This document shows positions 38,916 to 44,056 of a stretch of 64,000 bases of DNA, in pieces. A program made the translations under genes and the position numbers. The DNA is from Candidatus Manganitrophus morganii (lineage in GTDB: Bacteria > Nitrospirota > Nitrospiria > SBBL01 > Manganitrophaceae): NCBI GenBank assembly GCA_021651055.1, contig JAJHOH010000001.1:1674001-1738000 (forward strand). Direction: 5' to 3'. Each line of letters begins with the position of its first letter. Positions within the stretch are counted from its first letter, which is position 1. Below the pieces are notes generated by a model. It ran no database searches, was not told the origin of the DNA, and saw only the letters and a list, made by a program, of their open reading frames with translations.

Positions 38916-39307
38916 TTTCGTATCAAGTCGAACGGGAGATCGATCCTGCAGCGGTCGCCGATCTGTTCCGACGGTCCGGCATCCACCGGCCGGTGGACGA
39001 TCTCGATCGGATCGGCCGGATGATTCATCATGCCAATCTGATCCTCTGTGCCTGGGATGGAGAGAAAATAGTCGGGATTGCGCGCGCCCTCACCGACTTC
39101 AGCTACTGCTGTTACCTCTCCGATCTCGCTGTCGACCGCGCCTATCAAAAGCAGGGGATCGGAAAAGGGCTGGTCGATCGGGTGAAAGAGATTGTTGGAG
39201 ATGAGGTGATGATTCTTCTTCTTTCGGCTCCGGAAGCAGAGAGCTATTATCCCCATCTTGGCTTCGAGAAGGCGGAGAACGCTTGGCGCATTCCGCGCAA
39301 GCGATGA
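38912..39307 (+). CDS. GNAT-family N-acetyltransferase
   Basis: A 131-residue acetyltransferase. The start at 38912 (MISYQVEREI) overlaps the upstream stop. The acetyl-CoA motif is VDRAYQKQGIGKGLVDRV (Q-x2-G-x-G). The second half, VMILLLSAPEAESYYPHLGF, is the conserved beta-5/alpha-4 region. The acceptor (amine of a small molecule or protein) is unknown. The last 105 bases are repeated, with about one change in eight, at 41690-41795, beyond the cassette array. Confidence 0.85.
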   Translation: MISYQVEREIDPAAVADLFRRSGIHRPVDDLDRIGRMIHHANLILCAWDGEKIVGIARALTDFSYCCYLSDLAVDRAYQKQGIGKGLVDRVKEIVGDEVMILLLSAPEAESYYPHLGFEKAENAWRIPRKR

Positions 39308-39529
39308 TTCTTTCTCGGATTACCGAACCGTCTCGTTGAGGAGTTCGAACCGAGGCAGAACTCTCCCTACGATGTTGCTTTTAAAGTCCCTCCTGTGGTA
39401 TACCGAATCCGTCCAGAATTTCAAATCCTAAAATTTTCTGTCTATCTCCGGGACGCGGTCTCGACTGCTTTATGTTTCAAGATCTTATGAATAACTCCCA
39501 AGAGATAGAGAAAAAATTCCGTAAAATAA

Positions 39530-39547
39530 GGCAGAAATATTTCTGCC
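39530..39547. repeat. Perfect 18-bp palindrome at the left edge of the cassette array
   Basis: GGCAGAAATATTTCTGCC is perfectly self-complementary. The 220 bases before it, from the end of the GNAT gene, hold nothing I can recognise. The core GCAGAAATATTT also occurs inside the inverted-repeat element at 35000. It may be a weak terminator. Confidence 0.4.
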
Positions 39548-39577
39548 TATTTATATGTTTGGCAGTGAGTAATCGAC

Positions 39578-40099
39578 GTGAGTAGCGCAACCATGATCTG
39601 GAGCACAGCTGCAGCAGTGATCGCCTCATTGGGTGGCGGGGCGGTTCTCGTCTTCGCGTTCTCGTCTTGGTTAGGCAAAGTCTGGGCTACGCGCATTGCT
39701 GAAGCGGAACGAGCGAGGTTCTCAAGAGAGCTCGAGGGCTACAGAAACCAGCTCCAGCAACTTGCCGAAGAGCGACGAGATGCTCTCACTCGCAAGCGAG
39801 ACATATATGCGCAGCTCGCCACTTCGATGCGCGTGTTTCTAGTCTCGGGGAGGCCGGCTTCGGATCAAGAGAAAAAGGACTTCCTGGCAGCGTTCGATGT
39901 GGCAGCGCTTTGGGCTTCTGAAGCCGTAGCGAAGGCGTTGGCTAACTTTCTTGAGTACAGTACTCGAAGCGCGAATCAGCCTGGTAGCGTGACCAACGAC
40001 GAATTCAAGAACGCATATCGAGCGTGTCTCAATGCCATGCGACGAGACTGCGGCTTTCCGGATACTGAGTTCAGTTACCCGGTAATCACCTTTCGTTAG
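39578..40099 (+). CDS. Cassette gene 1: membrane-anchored coiled-coil protein of unknown function
   Basis: A 173-residue protein starting at GTG 39578 (an ATG at 39593 is possible). The N-terminal helix AAAVIASLGGGAVLVFAFSS is followed by WLGKVWATRIAEAERARF and then a coiled coil to about residue 75 (SRELEGYRNQLQQLAEERRD). This opening is typical, in my recollection, of a family of hypothetical proteins often found as integron cassettes. The rest is helical and polar. Function unknown. An attC begins 29 bases after its stop. Base composition is less GC-rich than the chromosomal neighbours. Confidence 0.72.
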   Translation: MSSATMIWSTAAAVIASLGGGAVLVFAFSSWLGKVWATRIAEAERARFSRELEGYRNQLQQLAEERRDALTRKRDIYAQLATSMRVFLVSGRPASDQEKKDFLAAFDVAALWASEAVAKALANFLEYSTRSANQPGSVTNDEFKNAYRACLNAMRRDCGFPDTEFSYPVITFR

Positions 40100-40127
40100 C
40101 TGACATGCGTGATGCAACCAAGAACCT

Positions 40128-40190
40128 GCCCAACAAGCGCTTGCAGTCGACGCTCGCAATGCTTCGTGCGGCTGAAGCGCAACGTTAGGA
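40128..40190 (+). other. attC site 1
   Basis: A 63-bp site. The left core GCCCAAC (RYYYAAC) pairs with the right core GTTAGGA, one base off GTTRRRY. The inner boxes GCGCTTGCAG and CTGAAGCGC pair with one unpaired G, the extrahelical base used by IntI to choose the strand. Confidence 0.82.
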
Positions 40191-40197
40191 GTAACGA

Positions 40198-40545
40198 GTG
40201 AAAAAGAAAGCCCTCATTGGTGCAGTTGGGATGGTGTTGGTCGGCCTCGGGGTACTCGCTTATCTGGCGGCACCGTATGTGGCAACGCCAGTGTTTAGCG
40301 CTATCAATAGTTCTCGTGAGCCGGTCCAGGTGATGGCGTACTGGCGAAATGAAAGTAAGAATCTGGGAACTGTTGCACCGGGTCAGAAATTTAAGGTGAA
40401 TGCTGAGGCGGCAATCTCGTTCAAGGCAAAGTTTCTAAACGGCAGGGAACTAGCTAGTTCTGAGATGTACTTCACGTCTGGTACGTCCATTGAGGCAGAT
40501 ATCACCGAGTCAGGAATCGAGCTCCGTTATGCGTCCCGCACCTAA
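40198..40545 (+). CDS. Cassette gene 2: small exported or membrane-anchored protein
   Basis: A 115-residue protein. The GTG start at 40198 lies 7 bases after attC1, whose right core with its flank supplies the ribosome site TTAGGAG. A hydrophobic helix (ALIGAVGMVLVGLGVLAYLA) is a signal anchor. The rest is a small beta-rich domain (REPVQVMAYWRNESKNLGTV; ISFKAKFLNGRELASSEMYF). No known family recognised. Its TAA stop overlaps the left core of attC2 (ACCTAAC), as is usual for tightly packed cassettes. Confidence 0.72.
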   Translation: MKKKALIGAVGMVLVGLGVLAYLAAPYVATPVFSAINSSREPVQVMAYWRNESKNLGTVAPGQKFKVNAEAAISFKAKFLNGRELASSEMYFTSGTSIEADITESGIELRYASRT

Positions 40546-40601
40546 CTCTTCACTCAAGCGGACGCCGCAAAGCGCGGCACCGCTTAGCTCAAACGTTAGG
40601 A
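40540..40601 (+). other. attC site 2
   Basis: A 62-bp site. The left core ACCTAAC pairs perfectly over six bases with GTTAGGA on the right. Inner boxes AAGCGG and CCGCTT pair; the tip contains GCCGC and GCGGC. It separates cassettes 2 and 3. Confidence 0.82.
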
Positions 40602-40607
40602 GGAATT

Positions 40608-40727
40608 CCGGGGACACCATACTTAATTATTGACTCTCCTTGTTCGAAAAATCATTGGGCCGAATTCTTCATCGTCGAAGACCAGGACCAAAGCAAAAGG
40701 CATCGAATTAAGTATGGTGTCCTCCGG
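40608..40727. mobile_element. Inverted-repeat element (MITE/REP-like) inserted in cassette 3
   Basis: A 120-bp element. The left arm GGGGACACCATACTTAATT matches the complement of the right arm AATTAAGTATGGTGTCC, with an extra base near the right outer end (CCTCCGG against CCGGGG). No coding capacity. The arm motif is of the type flanking REP-associated (RAYT/Y1) transposase genes in other bacteria. It sits directly after the TAGGAGGAATT ribosome site that follows attC2, splitting the cassette gene from its translation signal. Confidence 0.65.
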
Positions 40728-40736
40728 AACTGGGTA

Positions 40737-41009
40737 TTGGTTCATGACACGACATGTGTTCTTTATTGCGGTTCTGATTTTTATCGGCTCTGGTGCGGGC
40801 CTCGTATGCGCATTGAGCGTTACAATGATTCAGCTTCTCTCATGCGCTATGAATTCGGTCCGCTTATCTCTGCATTAGATCCTATTTCTGAGATGGAGGC
40901 ATACTGTCATCCCTTAAAGTTTGAGGTTATTGATACTAAGAATGAACAACTCCCCGGCCAATATCTTTGGCAAAGAGAAATACAGTTTCATTGTGTGGAT
41001 AACAAATAG
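40737..41009 (+). pseudogene. Cassette gene 3: 5'-disrupted hypothetical gene
   Basis: An open frame of 90 residues from a TTG at 40737, open further upstream into the inverted-repeat element. The product (VHDTTCVLYCGSDFYRLWCG, then RMRIERYNDSASLMRYEFGP) has no family I recognise. The stop is 4 bases before attC3, as expected for a cassette gene. The only good ribosome site, TAGGAGGAATT next to attC2, is 125 bases upstream, beyond the inserted element, so the original start codon was probably lost or displaced. Confidence 0.55.
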
Positions 41010-41012
41010 GTC

Positions 41013-41078
41013 GCCTAACTCAGCGCTCAAGCGGACGGCCACAACTGCTTGGCCGCCGCTTAGCTTGGAGCGTTAGGC
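41013..41078 (+). other. attC site 3
   Basis: A 66-bp site and the best of the three. The left core GCCTAAC and right core GTTAGGC are perfect complements and fit both consensus sequences. The inner stem AAGCGG-A-CGGCC pairs with GGCCG-CCGCTT, leaving one extrahelical A. Confidence 0.88.
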
Positions 41079-41084
41079 GACCCT

Positions 41085-41435
41085 ATGGTCCTCGCAGCGA
41101 AGATGCTGGCATCACTATTCGCAGCTGTGTTTTTCGCGTTTGCTGTGCTCAACATTCTCGAGCCGGCAATGCTGGACTCTGAGCCGCCACCCACAACTCT
41201 CCTGGAGATCGCGCCGCAAATGGGCTTCCTGCTCTTTCTTTCCCTTTGCCTGGGTGCCAGCGTCGCGAACCGAATTCCTCCGAGACGCTTCGTGCTGGCG
41301 GGCTTGTTTCTTTGCCCATTGATCGGGGGATATCTGGCATTCATAACATACGGTCCTCTCGGAGCCATCATTTCCGCAGCAATGTATGCTCTGTTTGCAG
41401 CGCCTGGTGTTTATCTTGCGAGTCGCGGCGCCTGA
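41085..41435 (+). CDS. Cassette gene 4: small multi-helix membrane protein
   Basis: A 116-residue protein starting 6 bases after attC3. Three or four membrane helices: LASLFAAVFFAFAVLNIL, MGFLLFLSLCLGASVANRI, FVLAGLFLCPLIGGYLAFI and IISAAMYALFAAPGVYLA. No known family recognised. No attC follows; GCCTGAC after the stop resembles a damaged left core. The array therefore ends here or its last attC has been destroyed by the element at 41463. Confidence 0.7.
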   Translation: MVLAAKMLASLFAAVFFAFAVLNILEPAMLDSEPPPTTLLEIAPQMGFLLFLSLCLGASVANRIPPRRFVLAGLFLCPLIGGYLAFITYGPLGAIISAAMYALFAAPGVYLASRGA

Positions 41436-41462: not shown

Positions 41463-41667
41463 GGTCGTATCTTTACTTTTGACCTTTAGTGTTGATTAAT
41501 TGAGCCCAGGAGAATGGCGCGGATATCGAGGATCAATTATCCGAATACCTTTACCATGTGAGCTGAAGTGCAACGAGCAGAAGCAACACTGCAAGGACAG
41601 CCGAAGATCAAAGAAACCACAAGAAAGGTGAAGCGATTCCTTGGAAGTCAAAAGTAAAGATGCGACC
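41463..41667. mobile_element. Inverted-repeat element (MITE/REP-like) at the right end of the array
   Basis: A 205-bp element. The left arm GTCGTATCTTTACTTTTGAC (41464-41483) and the complement of the right arm (41647-41666) differ at one base. The arm type, AAAAGTAAAGATGCGACCCC as read at the right end, is one I associate with REP-like elements flanking Y1 transposases. No gene inside. It separates cassette 4 from the GNAT fragment. Confidence 0.6.
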
Positions 41668-41681
41668 CCTGACGCAAAAGT

Positions 41682-41795
41682 ATGAGCGAAGAGGTGATGA
41701 TCCTTCTTCTCTCGGCCCCGGAGGCCGAGAGTTATTATCTTCATCTCAGGTTTGAGAAGGCGGAGAACGCCTGGCGCATTCCGCGCAGGCGGTGA
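41682..41795 (+). pseudogene. 3' fragment of a second GNAT acetyltransferase gene
   Basis: A 37-codon frame encoding EEVMILLLSAPEAESYY and FEKAENAWRIPRRR. It matches the last third of the GNAT protein that ends at 39307, with substitutions such as Pro to Leu and Gly to Arg. The part carrying the acetyl-CoA loop is absent and the upstream sequence belongs to the inverted-repeat element. It is the remnant of a paralogue or of a duplication broken by the array. Confidence 0.75.
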
Positions 41796-41814
41796 TTTAA
41801 GGAGCTGATGCAGA

Positions 41815-42489
41815 ATGTACGAAAAGTACTATCAGGAATATTGTAACGAAGTTCATAAAACTTTGGGTAGTTACCTTTTCTGGAAGATGATACATAATAG
41901 GGCTGCATCTGAACCTGAGTTACTATCTGCCCTCAATAATACGCCAACAAGCTGGATAATTATACAACATGCATTACAGGTTACTTTATTTATGACGCTG
42001 GGAAGAATATTCGATGGAGACGATGACGCATTCTCTGTCGATGATCTACTGACATGTTGTATTGAAGAGATCGACACATTTAGCAAGGAAAGCCTAAGTA
42101 ATAGAAAAATTAAAGACCAAAGCGGGAATAAACCAGCTTGGCTTGAAGGGTACATAGCTGATGCATATGTACCTACCCCAACAGACTTTCAAAAATTGAG
42201 AGGTGAGCTTACTAAACATCGTAAGGTGTTCAAACAAATTTATCAGCCGATTCGGCACAAGCTTTTCGCCCACAAAGATAAGGAATTTATAGGCAAGGCC
42301 GATCAGTTGTGGGCTGAAACCAATATTGATCAGTTAGAAGGAATAATCTGGTTTTTACATGATCTAAAACAAACTTTATTTGATACATATGTAAATGGTA
42401 GGGCACCTTTACTCCAAAATAGCAAACCAGATGTTGATTTCTATGAAAGTGATTATGCGTCATTGTTAGACATGGTAAAGGGCACATAA
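41815..42489 (+). CDS. HEPN/AbiU2-like protein, possible defence gene
   Basis: A 224-residue, mostly helical protein in markedly AT-rich DNA, unlike its neighbours, which points to recent transfer. The segment IRHKLFAHKDKEF (about 146-158) contains R-x5-H (Arg147, His153), the RNase motif of HEPN domains. The N-terminal helices WIIIQHALQVTLFMTLGRIF resemble the AbiU2 HEPN group found in phage-abortive systems. If active it would be a metal-independent RNase. No obvious antitoxin (MNT) partner is adjacent. AAGGAG lies 9 bases before the start. Family assignment is by motif only. Confidence 0.6.
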   Translation: MYEKYYQEYCNEVHKTLGSYLFWKMIHNRAASEPELLSALNNTPTSWIIIQHALQVTLFMTLGRIFDGDDDAFSVDDLLTCCIEEIDTFSKESLSNRKIKDQSGNKPAWLEGYIADAYVPTPTDFQKLRGELTKHRKVFKQIYQPIRHKLFAHKDKEFIGKADQLWAETNIDQLEGIIWFLHDLKQTLFDTYVNGRAPLLQNSKPDVDFYESDYASLLDMVKGT

Positions 42490-43456: not shown

Positions 43457-43747
43457 GTGATCGAAATTCGCAAGACCGATGTTTTCGCTCAGTGGCTCGA
43501 TGGCTTGCACGACATTCGCGCAAGGGCACGGGTTCTGGTCAGGATCGAGCGCCTGGCGGCGGGAAACGCGGGAGATGTCAAACCCGTTGGAGAAGGCGTC
43601 TCAGAGTTGCGGATCGATTACGGACCGGGATACCGGGTGTACTTTACCAAGCGAGGGCGCGAGGTGATTATTCTTCTGGCGGGAGGTGACAAGAGCACTC
43701 AAGCCCGCGATATCAAAGCCGCTTTGCGCCTCGCCCGCAATCTATAG
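43457..43747 (+). CDS. HigB/RelE-superfamily toxin (Gp49 type)
   Basis: A 96-residue toxin. GTG start at 43457. The family core is LDGLHDIRARARVLVRIERL, VSELRIDYGPGYRVYFTKRG and VIILLAGGDKSTQARDI, the standard signature of the phage-derived Gp49-like HigB family. These toxins cut ribosome-bound mRNA. It is followed 9 bases later by the antitoxin gene, the toxin-first order of HigBA modules. The upstream palindrome supports autoregulation. Confidence 0.88.
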   Translation: MIEIRKTDVFAQWLDGLHDIRARARVLVRIERLAAGNAGDVKPVGEGVSELRIDYGPGYRVYFTKRGREVIILLAGGDKSTQARDIKAALRLARNL

Positions 43748-43756
43748 GAGTATACG

Positions 43757-44056
43757 ATGAAAAAAACCACGACCAGTCGCTACGATGTCGCCGAACACCT
43801 CCGAACCCCAGAGGAAATGGCCGCCTACCTTGAGGCTTGCATGGAAGAAGCCAACGGCGACGCAGCCTTGATTGCCAAGGCGCTGGGGGACATTGCGCGT
43901 GCGAAGGGGATGGCGCAGGTGGCGCGCGATGCGGGCCTCTCCAGAGAAAGTCTTTACAAGGCGCTCTCCGGCGAGCGCAGCCCCGGCTTCGACACCATCC
44001 TCAAAGTAGTCGCGGCATTAGGGTTGAAGTTGCACGCTGAAGCCAATCATCCCTGA
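43757..44056 (+). CDS. HigA-type antitoxin
   Basis: A 99-residue helix-turn-helix protein. It reads MKKTTTSRYDVAEHLRTPEE, then ALGDIARAKGMAQVARDAGL and SRESLYKALSGERSPGFDTI with VVAALGLKLHAE. This is the 'addiction module antidote' family that partners Gp49-type toxins; the C-terminal half is a Xre-like DNA-binding domain. It should neutralise the toxin and bind the palindrome at 43431. TAGGAG lies 7 bases before its start. Confidence 0.88.
   Translation: MKKTTTSRYDVAEHLRTPEEMAAYLEACMEEANGDAALIAKALGDIARAKGMAQVARDAGLSRESLYKALSGERSPGFDTILKVVAALGLKLHAEANHP

Follow-up and report, generated by a model that had tools for sequence, protein, structure and literature searches.

The gene-cassette array that we describe here is most simply read as a chromosomal integron that has decayed and has duplicated attI sites, which subsequently received cassettes through an integrase supplied in trans. 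It lies in a 64,000-nucleotide stretch of DNA (henceforth the window), and we put the probability that it is a relic of this kind, i.e., one in which intI was lost, copies of attI were kept and cassettes were later moved by an IntI supplied in trans, at roughly 75%. This reading draws on a conserved array head with homologues across the genus, on the remnant of an intI gene beside one of these homologues, and on a cassette that appears to have been exchanged between species recently.

attC sites and cassettes of the array

The array had been proposed from the sequence alone on the basis of three attC sites separating small plus-strand genes. We searched the 4.29-Mb single-contig genome from which the window comes (G000), together with five congeners, using a covariance model trained solely on 16 attC sites from plasmid-borne class 1 integrons, and attC3 and attC2 were the top two matches in the genome (Table 1). 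Folding of the bottom strand gave a similar picture: attC2 and attC3 folded far better than shuffled sequence (z of -4.6 and -4.7, respectively), whereas attC1 did not (z of -0.6). Both checks thus bore out attC2 and attC3 and neither bore out attC1, which the class 1 model missed in the genome-wide search. With a covariance model trained on the genus attC1 scored 26 bits (E 0.0056), and its counterpart in one congener (G004) folds better than the window copy. Despite the weak score, attC1 is supported because the homology of cassette 1 with G004 stops exactly at the attC1 core (see below). The array was therefore confirmed, attC2 and attC3 by an independent model and attC1 by comparison. Two further details of the sequence-only reading also held: start codons lie close to core sites (GTG 40198 and ATG 41085, 7 and 6 bases after the core, respectively), and the TAA stop codon of cassette 2 (40543-40545) falls within the following R'' box. 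A bare attC consensus pattern did no better genome-wide than its reversed control (35 vs 73 matches per strand); the same scan brought to light the second array of G000 (see below). When compared with a plasmid database, the array itself gave matches at the level of attC only.

Table 1 Features of the cassette array and its head (window positions)
Feature	Position	Strand	Description
Promoter-like block of head	39375-39404	+	TTGCTT-N18-TATACC; candidate Pc, direction putative
Leader with four TTTCTGYCTAT-like motifs, both orientations	39434-39552	+	Motifs at 39434-39448, 39502-39515, 39524-39538, 39539-39552
attI core (very probable)	39545-39563	+	GCCTATT-TATAT-GTTTGGC; nine heads alike to G, then unrelated; locus B homologue beside intI 5' remnant
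Cassette 1	39557-40189	+	Gene 39578-40099 (173 aa), no known family match
attC1	40128-40190	+	Weakened hairpin; supported by cross-species comparison
Cassette 2	40184-40600	+	Gene 40198-40545 (115 aa), no known family match; spans attC1 core to attC2 core
attC2	40540-40601	+	56.8 bits, E 6.7e-11 genome-wide (class 1 covariance model)
Cassette 3	40595-41077	+	Reading frame 40737-41009 (90 aa); 5' part interrupted by palindromic element
attC3	41013-41078	+	61.8 bits, E 3.1e-12 genome-wide (class 1 covariance model)
Terminal gene	41072-41435	+	Gene 41085-41435 (116 aa); incomplete last cassette, without following attC

The four proteins encoded in the array had no match above threshold in Pfam, NCBIfam or PADLOC, in line with their earlier description as genes without a nameable function. 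The cassette 1 protein has distant homologues (28-34% identity) in, among others, Marinobacter, Rheinheimera and Halomonas. As attC-like matches lie in several of these loci, cassette 1 is probably a member of a cassette family found across phyla. A palindromic insert of 113 bp (40610-40722) splits cassette 3, and the covariance model searches detected no attC downstream of the terminal gene.

The array head and its homologues

Upstream of cassette 1, the window holds a head (~39375-39557) belonging to a set of nine related heads across the genus (two in G000, 1.35 Mb apart, three in G001, two in G005, and one each in G002 and G003). The nine heads align over about 160-190 bp, with a mean identity of 0.84 upstream of the core and identity at chance level beyond it. 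The core ends in ATG|TT (exceptions among the nine: one ATG|CT and one ATG|TC), and the junction of attI with cassette 1 lies between G39557 and T39558, position 39557 being the G of the attI core and not merely the edge of the cassette. The motif TTGMTTTTA..TGTGRTATACC is retained in 9/9 heads; a scan with the sigma-70 consensus did not score the promoter-like block. The leader motifs, which include the palindrome AAATAAGGCAGAAATATTTCTGCCTATTT, are possible accessory binding sites. Heads occur at two or more orthologous loci: at locus A, to which the window copy belongs, they adjoin a GNAT gene in G000, G005 and G001, and at locus B they adjoin type IV pilus genes in G000, G005, G001 and G002, with a 320-bp piece of locus B also present in G003.

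Locus B of G000 is the site of its second array (L016 5495-8600, i.e., G000:C1:3065.5-3068.6 kb), which comprises a head with an intI 5' remnant and attC sites at L016 6291, 7609 and 8532. A reading frame divergent from the head starts 227-228 bp from the core and encodes MNPPLLTHVQPSAPQPKKLLDQVRKVIQLK before it diverges from IntI; in G003 the likeness extends to RLKHYSIRTD, and within the loci searched a tblastn query with the IntI of a same-order genome matched the G003 copy at 55% over 40 residues (E 2e-5). As judged from these alignments, the frame corresponds to the 5' end of intI, and its orientation relative to attI is the standard one. The remnant of G000 amounts to ~35 codons beside the head, in the usual divergent orientation, and at locus A even the remnant is gone. 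Besides the second array, the search of the rest of the genome for further attC sites returned a third attC cluster (L067 6999, 10087 and 14092; G000:C1:3387-3394 kb) with no head detected. G003 carries attC sites on both sides of its intI remnant and head (L063 560-4621), i.e., two tandem arrays, and G001 carries a different intI pseudogene in which N- and C-terminal parts are fused by an internal deletion (G001:C9, L086 8508-8799).

Homology to the locus B head beside the intI 5' remnant makes it very probable that the conserved head, which ends at G39557|TT, is an attI, and the earlier statement that the window holds no attI had to be given up. This assignment rests on homology because the rule of inverted L and R boxes alone fails to single out the window attI. 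Counting against the reading as a relic integron filled in trans, the L box of the window core fits the RYYYAAC consensus in part only, and for two of the nine heads no attC could be recognised downstream, even when scanned with filters off. At locus A of G005 there is an apparent half attC, as judged by eye. Mutations in the window attI core (GTTTGGC) and in attC1 make present activity doubtful. One could also regard the head as a dispersed genomic repeat that served by chance as a secondary target of the attG type, given that a genome can carry it more than once while lacking a complete intI. We consider this highly improbable, since there are only two copies in G000 and the one at locus B adjoins an intI 5' end that diverges from it in the canonical way.

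Absence of an intact integrase

Across 396 genomes of the phylum, the integron integrase model TIGR02249 matched above its cut-off in 91, some of them from the same order. It gave no such match in any of the six genomes of the genus (G000 and its five congeners), with the negatives being weaker for the congeners because their assemblies are drafts of 72-99% completeness. Searches of the genus with IntI1 and with a profile of order-level IntI proteins returned fragments and Xer-type relatives only. The full-length TIGR02249 or IntI1 matches in the genus that were checked proved to be Xer proteins without the IntI-specific stretch, and the match at G002:C168 proved to be a XerC with an insertion. 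As tyrosine recombinases, G000 encodes XerC, XerD, two phage-type enzymes and one fragment of 111 aa. The absence of IntI that had been noted for the window thus extends to the whole single-contig genome.

The three attC sites cluster on a single strand and no integron integrase lies nearby (or anywhere in the genome), so the label CALIN given by the sequence-only reading is right by definition. By sequence homology, an attI very probably adjoins the first cassette, and in place of a functional intI gene the genome holds a 5' remnant at locus B. Because the head is very probably attI and its homologue lies beside that remnant, we interpret the array as the remains of a complete integron, not a bare attC cluster.

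Cassette exchange and the order of events

Cassette 1 is shared with G004: window 39557-40189 and L066 7256-7887 are 98.4% identical over 633 bp. The left edge of the shared block lies at the core G|TT and its right edge at the GTTAGG of attC1, and the flanks are unrelated, with attI (G000) vs attC (G004) upstream and a different cassette downstream. Cassette 1 is thus a core-bounded unit found in different contexts, after attI in one genome and after attC in the other. Outside the cassettes, the DNA near the array is about 82% alike between the two genomes (i.e., ~18% different), compared with a difference of 1.6% in cassette 1; this dating, which sets the substitution levels of different DNA against each other, is approximate. 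Cassette 1 has apparently been exchanged with another species recently.

An alternative is that ordinary homologous recombination, or the transfer of a larger segment, brought in cassette 1, and that the array is a fossil which has seen no integrase action since the loss of intI. Signs of decay fit this alternative (the palindromic insert in cassette 3, the weak attC1, the mutated core and the terminal gene without attC), as does the same kind of loss in Treponema phagedenis (PMC3607928). However, homologous recombination would need flanking homology, and the shared block is bounded by core sites with unrelated flanks on both sides, which makes it a rather improbable account.

At locus B, the junction at which intI is truncated is identical in G000, G001 and G005, species that are about 94-97% alike, which indicates that the truncation is older than the split of these species. 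In the same three genomes the attI-proximal cassettes differ and the distal cassettes of locus B are shared (those from L016 7953 onwards are common to G000 and G005, and the last one also occurs in G001), a pattern with the polarity expected of insertion at attI. Taken together, the shared truncation junction, the cassette polarity and the 1.6% divergence of cassette 1 suggest that precise cassette movement came after the destruction of the resident intI at locus B.

Given that intI is gone from the genome and its relatives, yet a cassette was exchanged recently, the enzyme was probably borrowed from elsewhere. Under the relic-integron reading, the genus would formerly have had an intI-attI platform, whose intI was first truncated and then lost; the attI copies (two in G000, at loci that are orthologous across species) would have stayed as array heads, at which cassettes were still inserted or removed by an IntI acting in trans, supplied by a transient mobile element or by another intI since lost. 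The first cassettes may be transcribed from the head. What we observe is the anatomy of the attC and attI sites, the missing intI and its remnant, the common truncation junction, the differing first cassettes and the precisely bounded cassette found in distant species; recombination by IntI at attC and attI, its supply in trans and the source of that supply, and head-driven transcription are inferred. No donor integrase was found, which counts against supply in trans. A resident intI outside both locus A and locus B could instead have served every attI, with each species losing it independently and very recently and no foreign enzyme involved. The second intI remnant kept at another place in G001 (G001:C9) does point to more than one intI in the genus; still, we regard such a history as unlikely, because it would require repeated recent losses and an intact copy is found in 0/6 genomes although the cassette exchange is only 1.6% of divergence old. 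More tentatively, several chromosomal attI copies might act as stable docking stations that outlive their integrase and are filled by the IntI of other elements, so that integron function would be trans-acting and multi-site instead of linked in cis; we offer this as a possibility towards which we remain sceptical.

Relation to described integrons

Each component of this arrangement is known, and in the open-access literature we found the combination described nowhere, i.e., no genus with several homologous attI copies at separate loci, no intact intI and later cassette exchange; we thus regard it as a variant. CALINs as defined in IntegronFinder (PMC9024848) likewise have at least two same-strand attC sites without an intI close by, but their usual description lacks the attI kept here and the homologous attI at a second locus beside an intI remnant. 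The same work reported two CALINs in the phylum Nitrospira, both in one genome (PMC9024848). The Nitrospirota-like lineage proposed from the sequence alone is supported by a congener deposited as 'Nitrospirae bacterium isolate nzgw269'. The ilvD integrons and CALINs of Xanthomonas (PMC12444791) resemble our case in that an ancestral chromosomal integron had its intI truncated or lost in many lineages and left CALINs at conserved loci. By contrast, one intI locus is kept in many Xanthomonas strains, whereas here no genome of the genus has an intact intI and homologous attI heads occur at two or more loci. In the integron remnant of Treponema phagedenis (PMC3607928) intI was also lost and attC sites remain; here, unlike there, attI is kept and the cassette exchange is apparently later than the truncation of intI. 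More generally, pseudogenes of intI are widespread (PMC2426708).

In intact integrons of the same order (e.g., G013, G014 and G006), about 100-220 bp separate intI from a core GTT from which it diverges. Their IntI N-termini align with the locus B remnant, but they keep the full IntI. A blastn search of the window head against the intI stretches of these intact integrons gave no match.

CALINs are usually seen as degraded integrons, and here both attI and a datable intI truncation can still be read. With cassette exchange apparently younger than the loss of the enzyme, continued evolution through a borrowed integrase becomes testable. The attI family defined by the heads can be used to find such arrays, which standard software leaves unannotated (PMC9024848).

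Surroundings of the array

In G000 the 3' end of the GNAT gene recurs as a 110-bp copy that flanks the array (window 39200-39309 and 41688-41797). The order is swapped in G005, where GNAT is followed by an AbiU2 gene, the GNAT 3' copy and the attI head (L064 14998-15097 and 15891-16002). This looks like modules stacked at the 3' end of a gene or recombining through the repeat. The HEPN AbiU2-family gene adjoining the array in the window (41815-42489; Pfam E 3e-16) is 96.5% conserved in G005, in the swapped position. Two palindromic repeat elements, the one interrupting cassette 3 (40610-40722) and another at 41463-41667, have the terminal inverted repeats GGACACCATACTTAATT and GGTCGTATCTTTACTTTTGAC, and such elements also occur in congeners. 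Just past the array, window 43457-44056 holds a toxin-antitoxin-like pair (Gp49-type, with an HI1420-type antidote).
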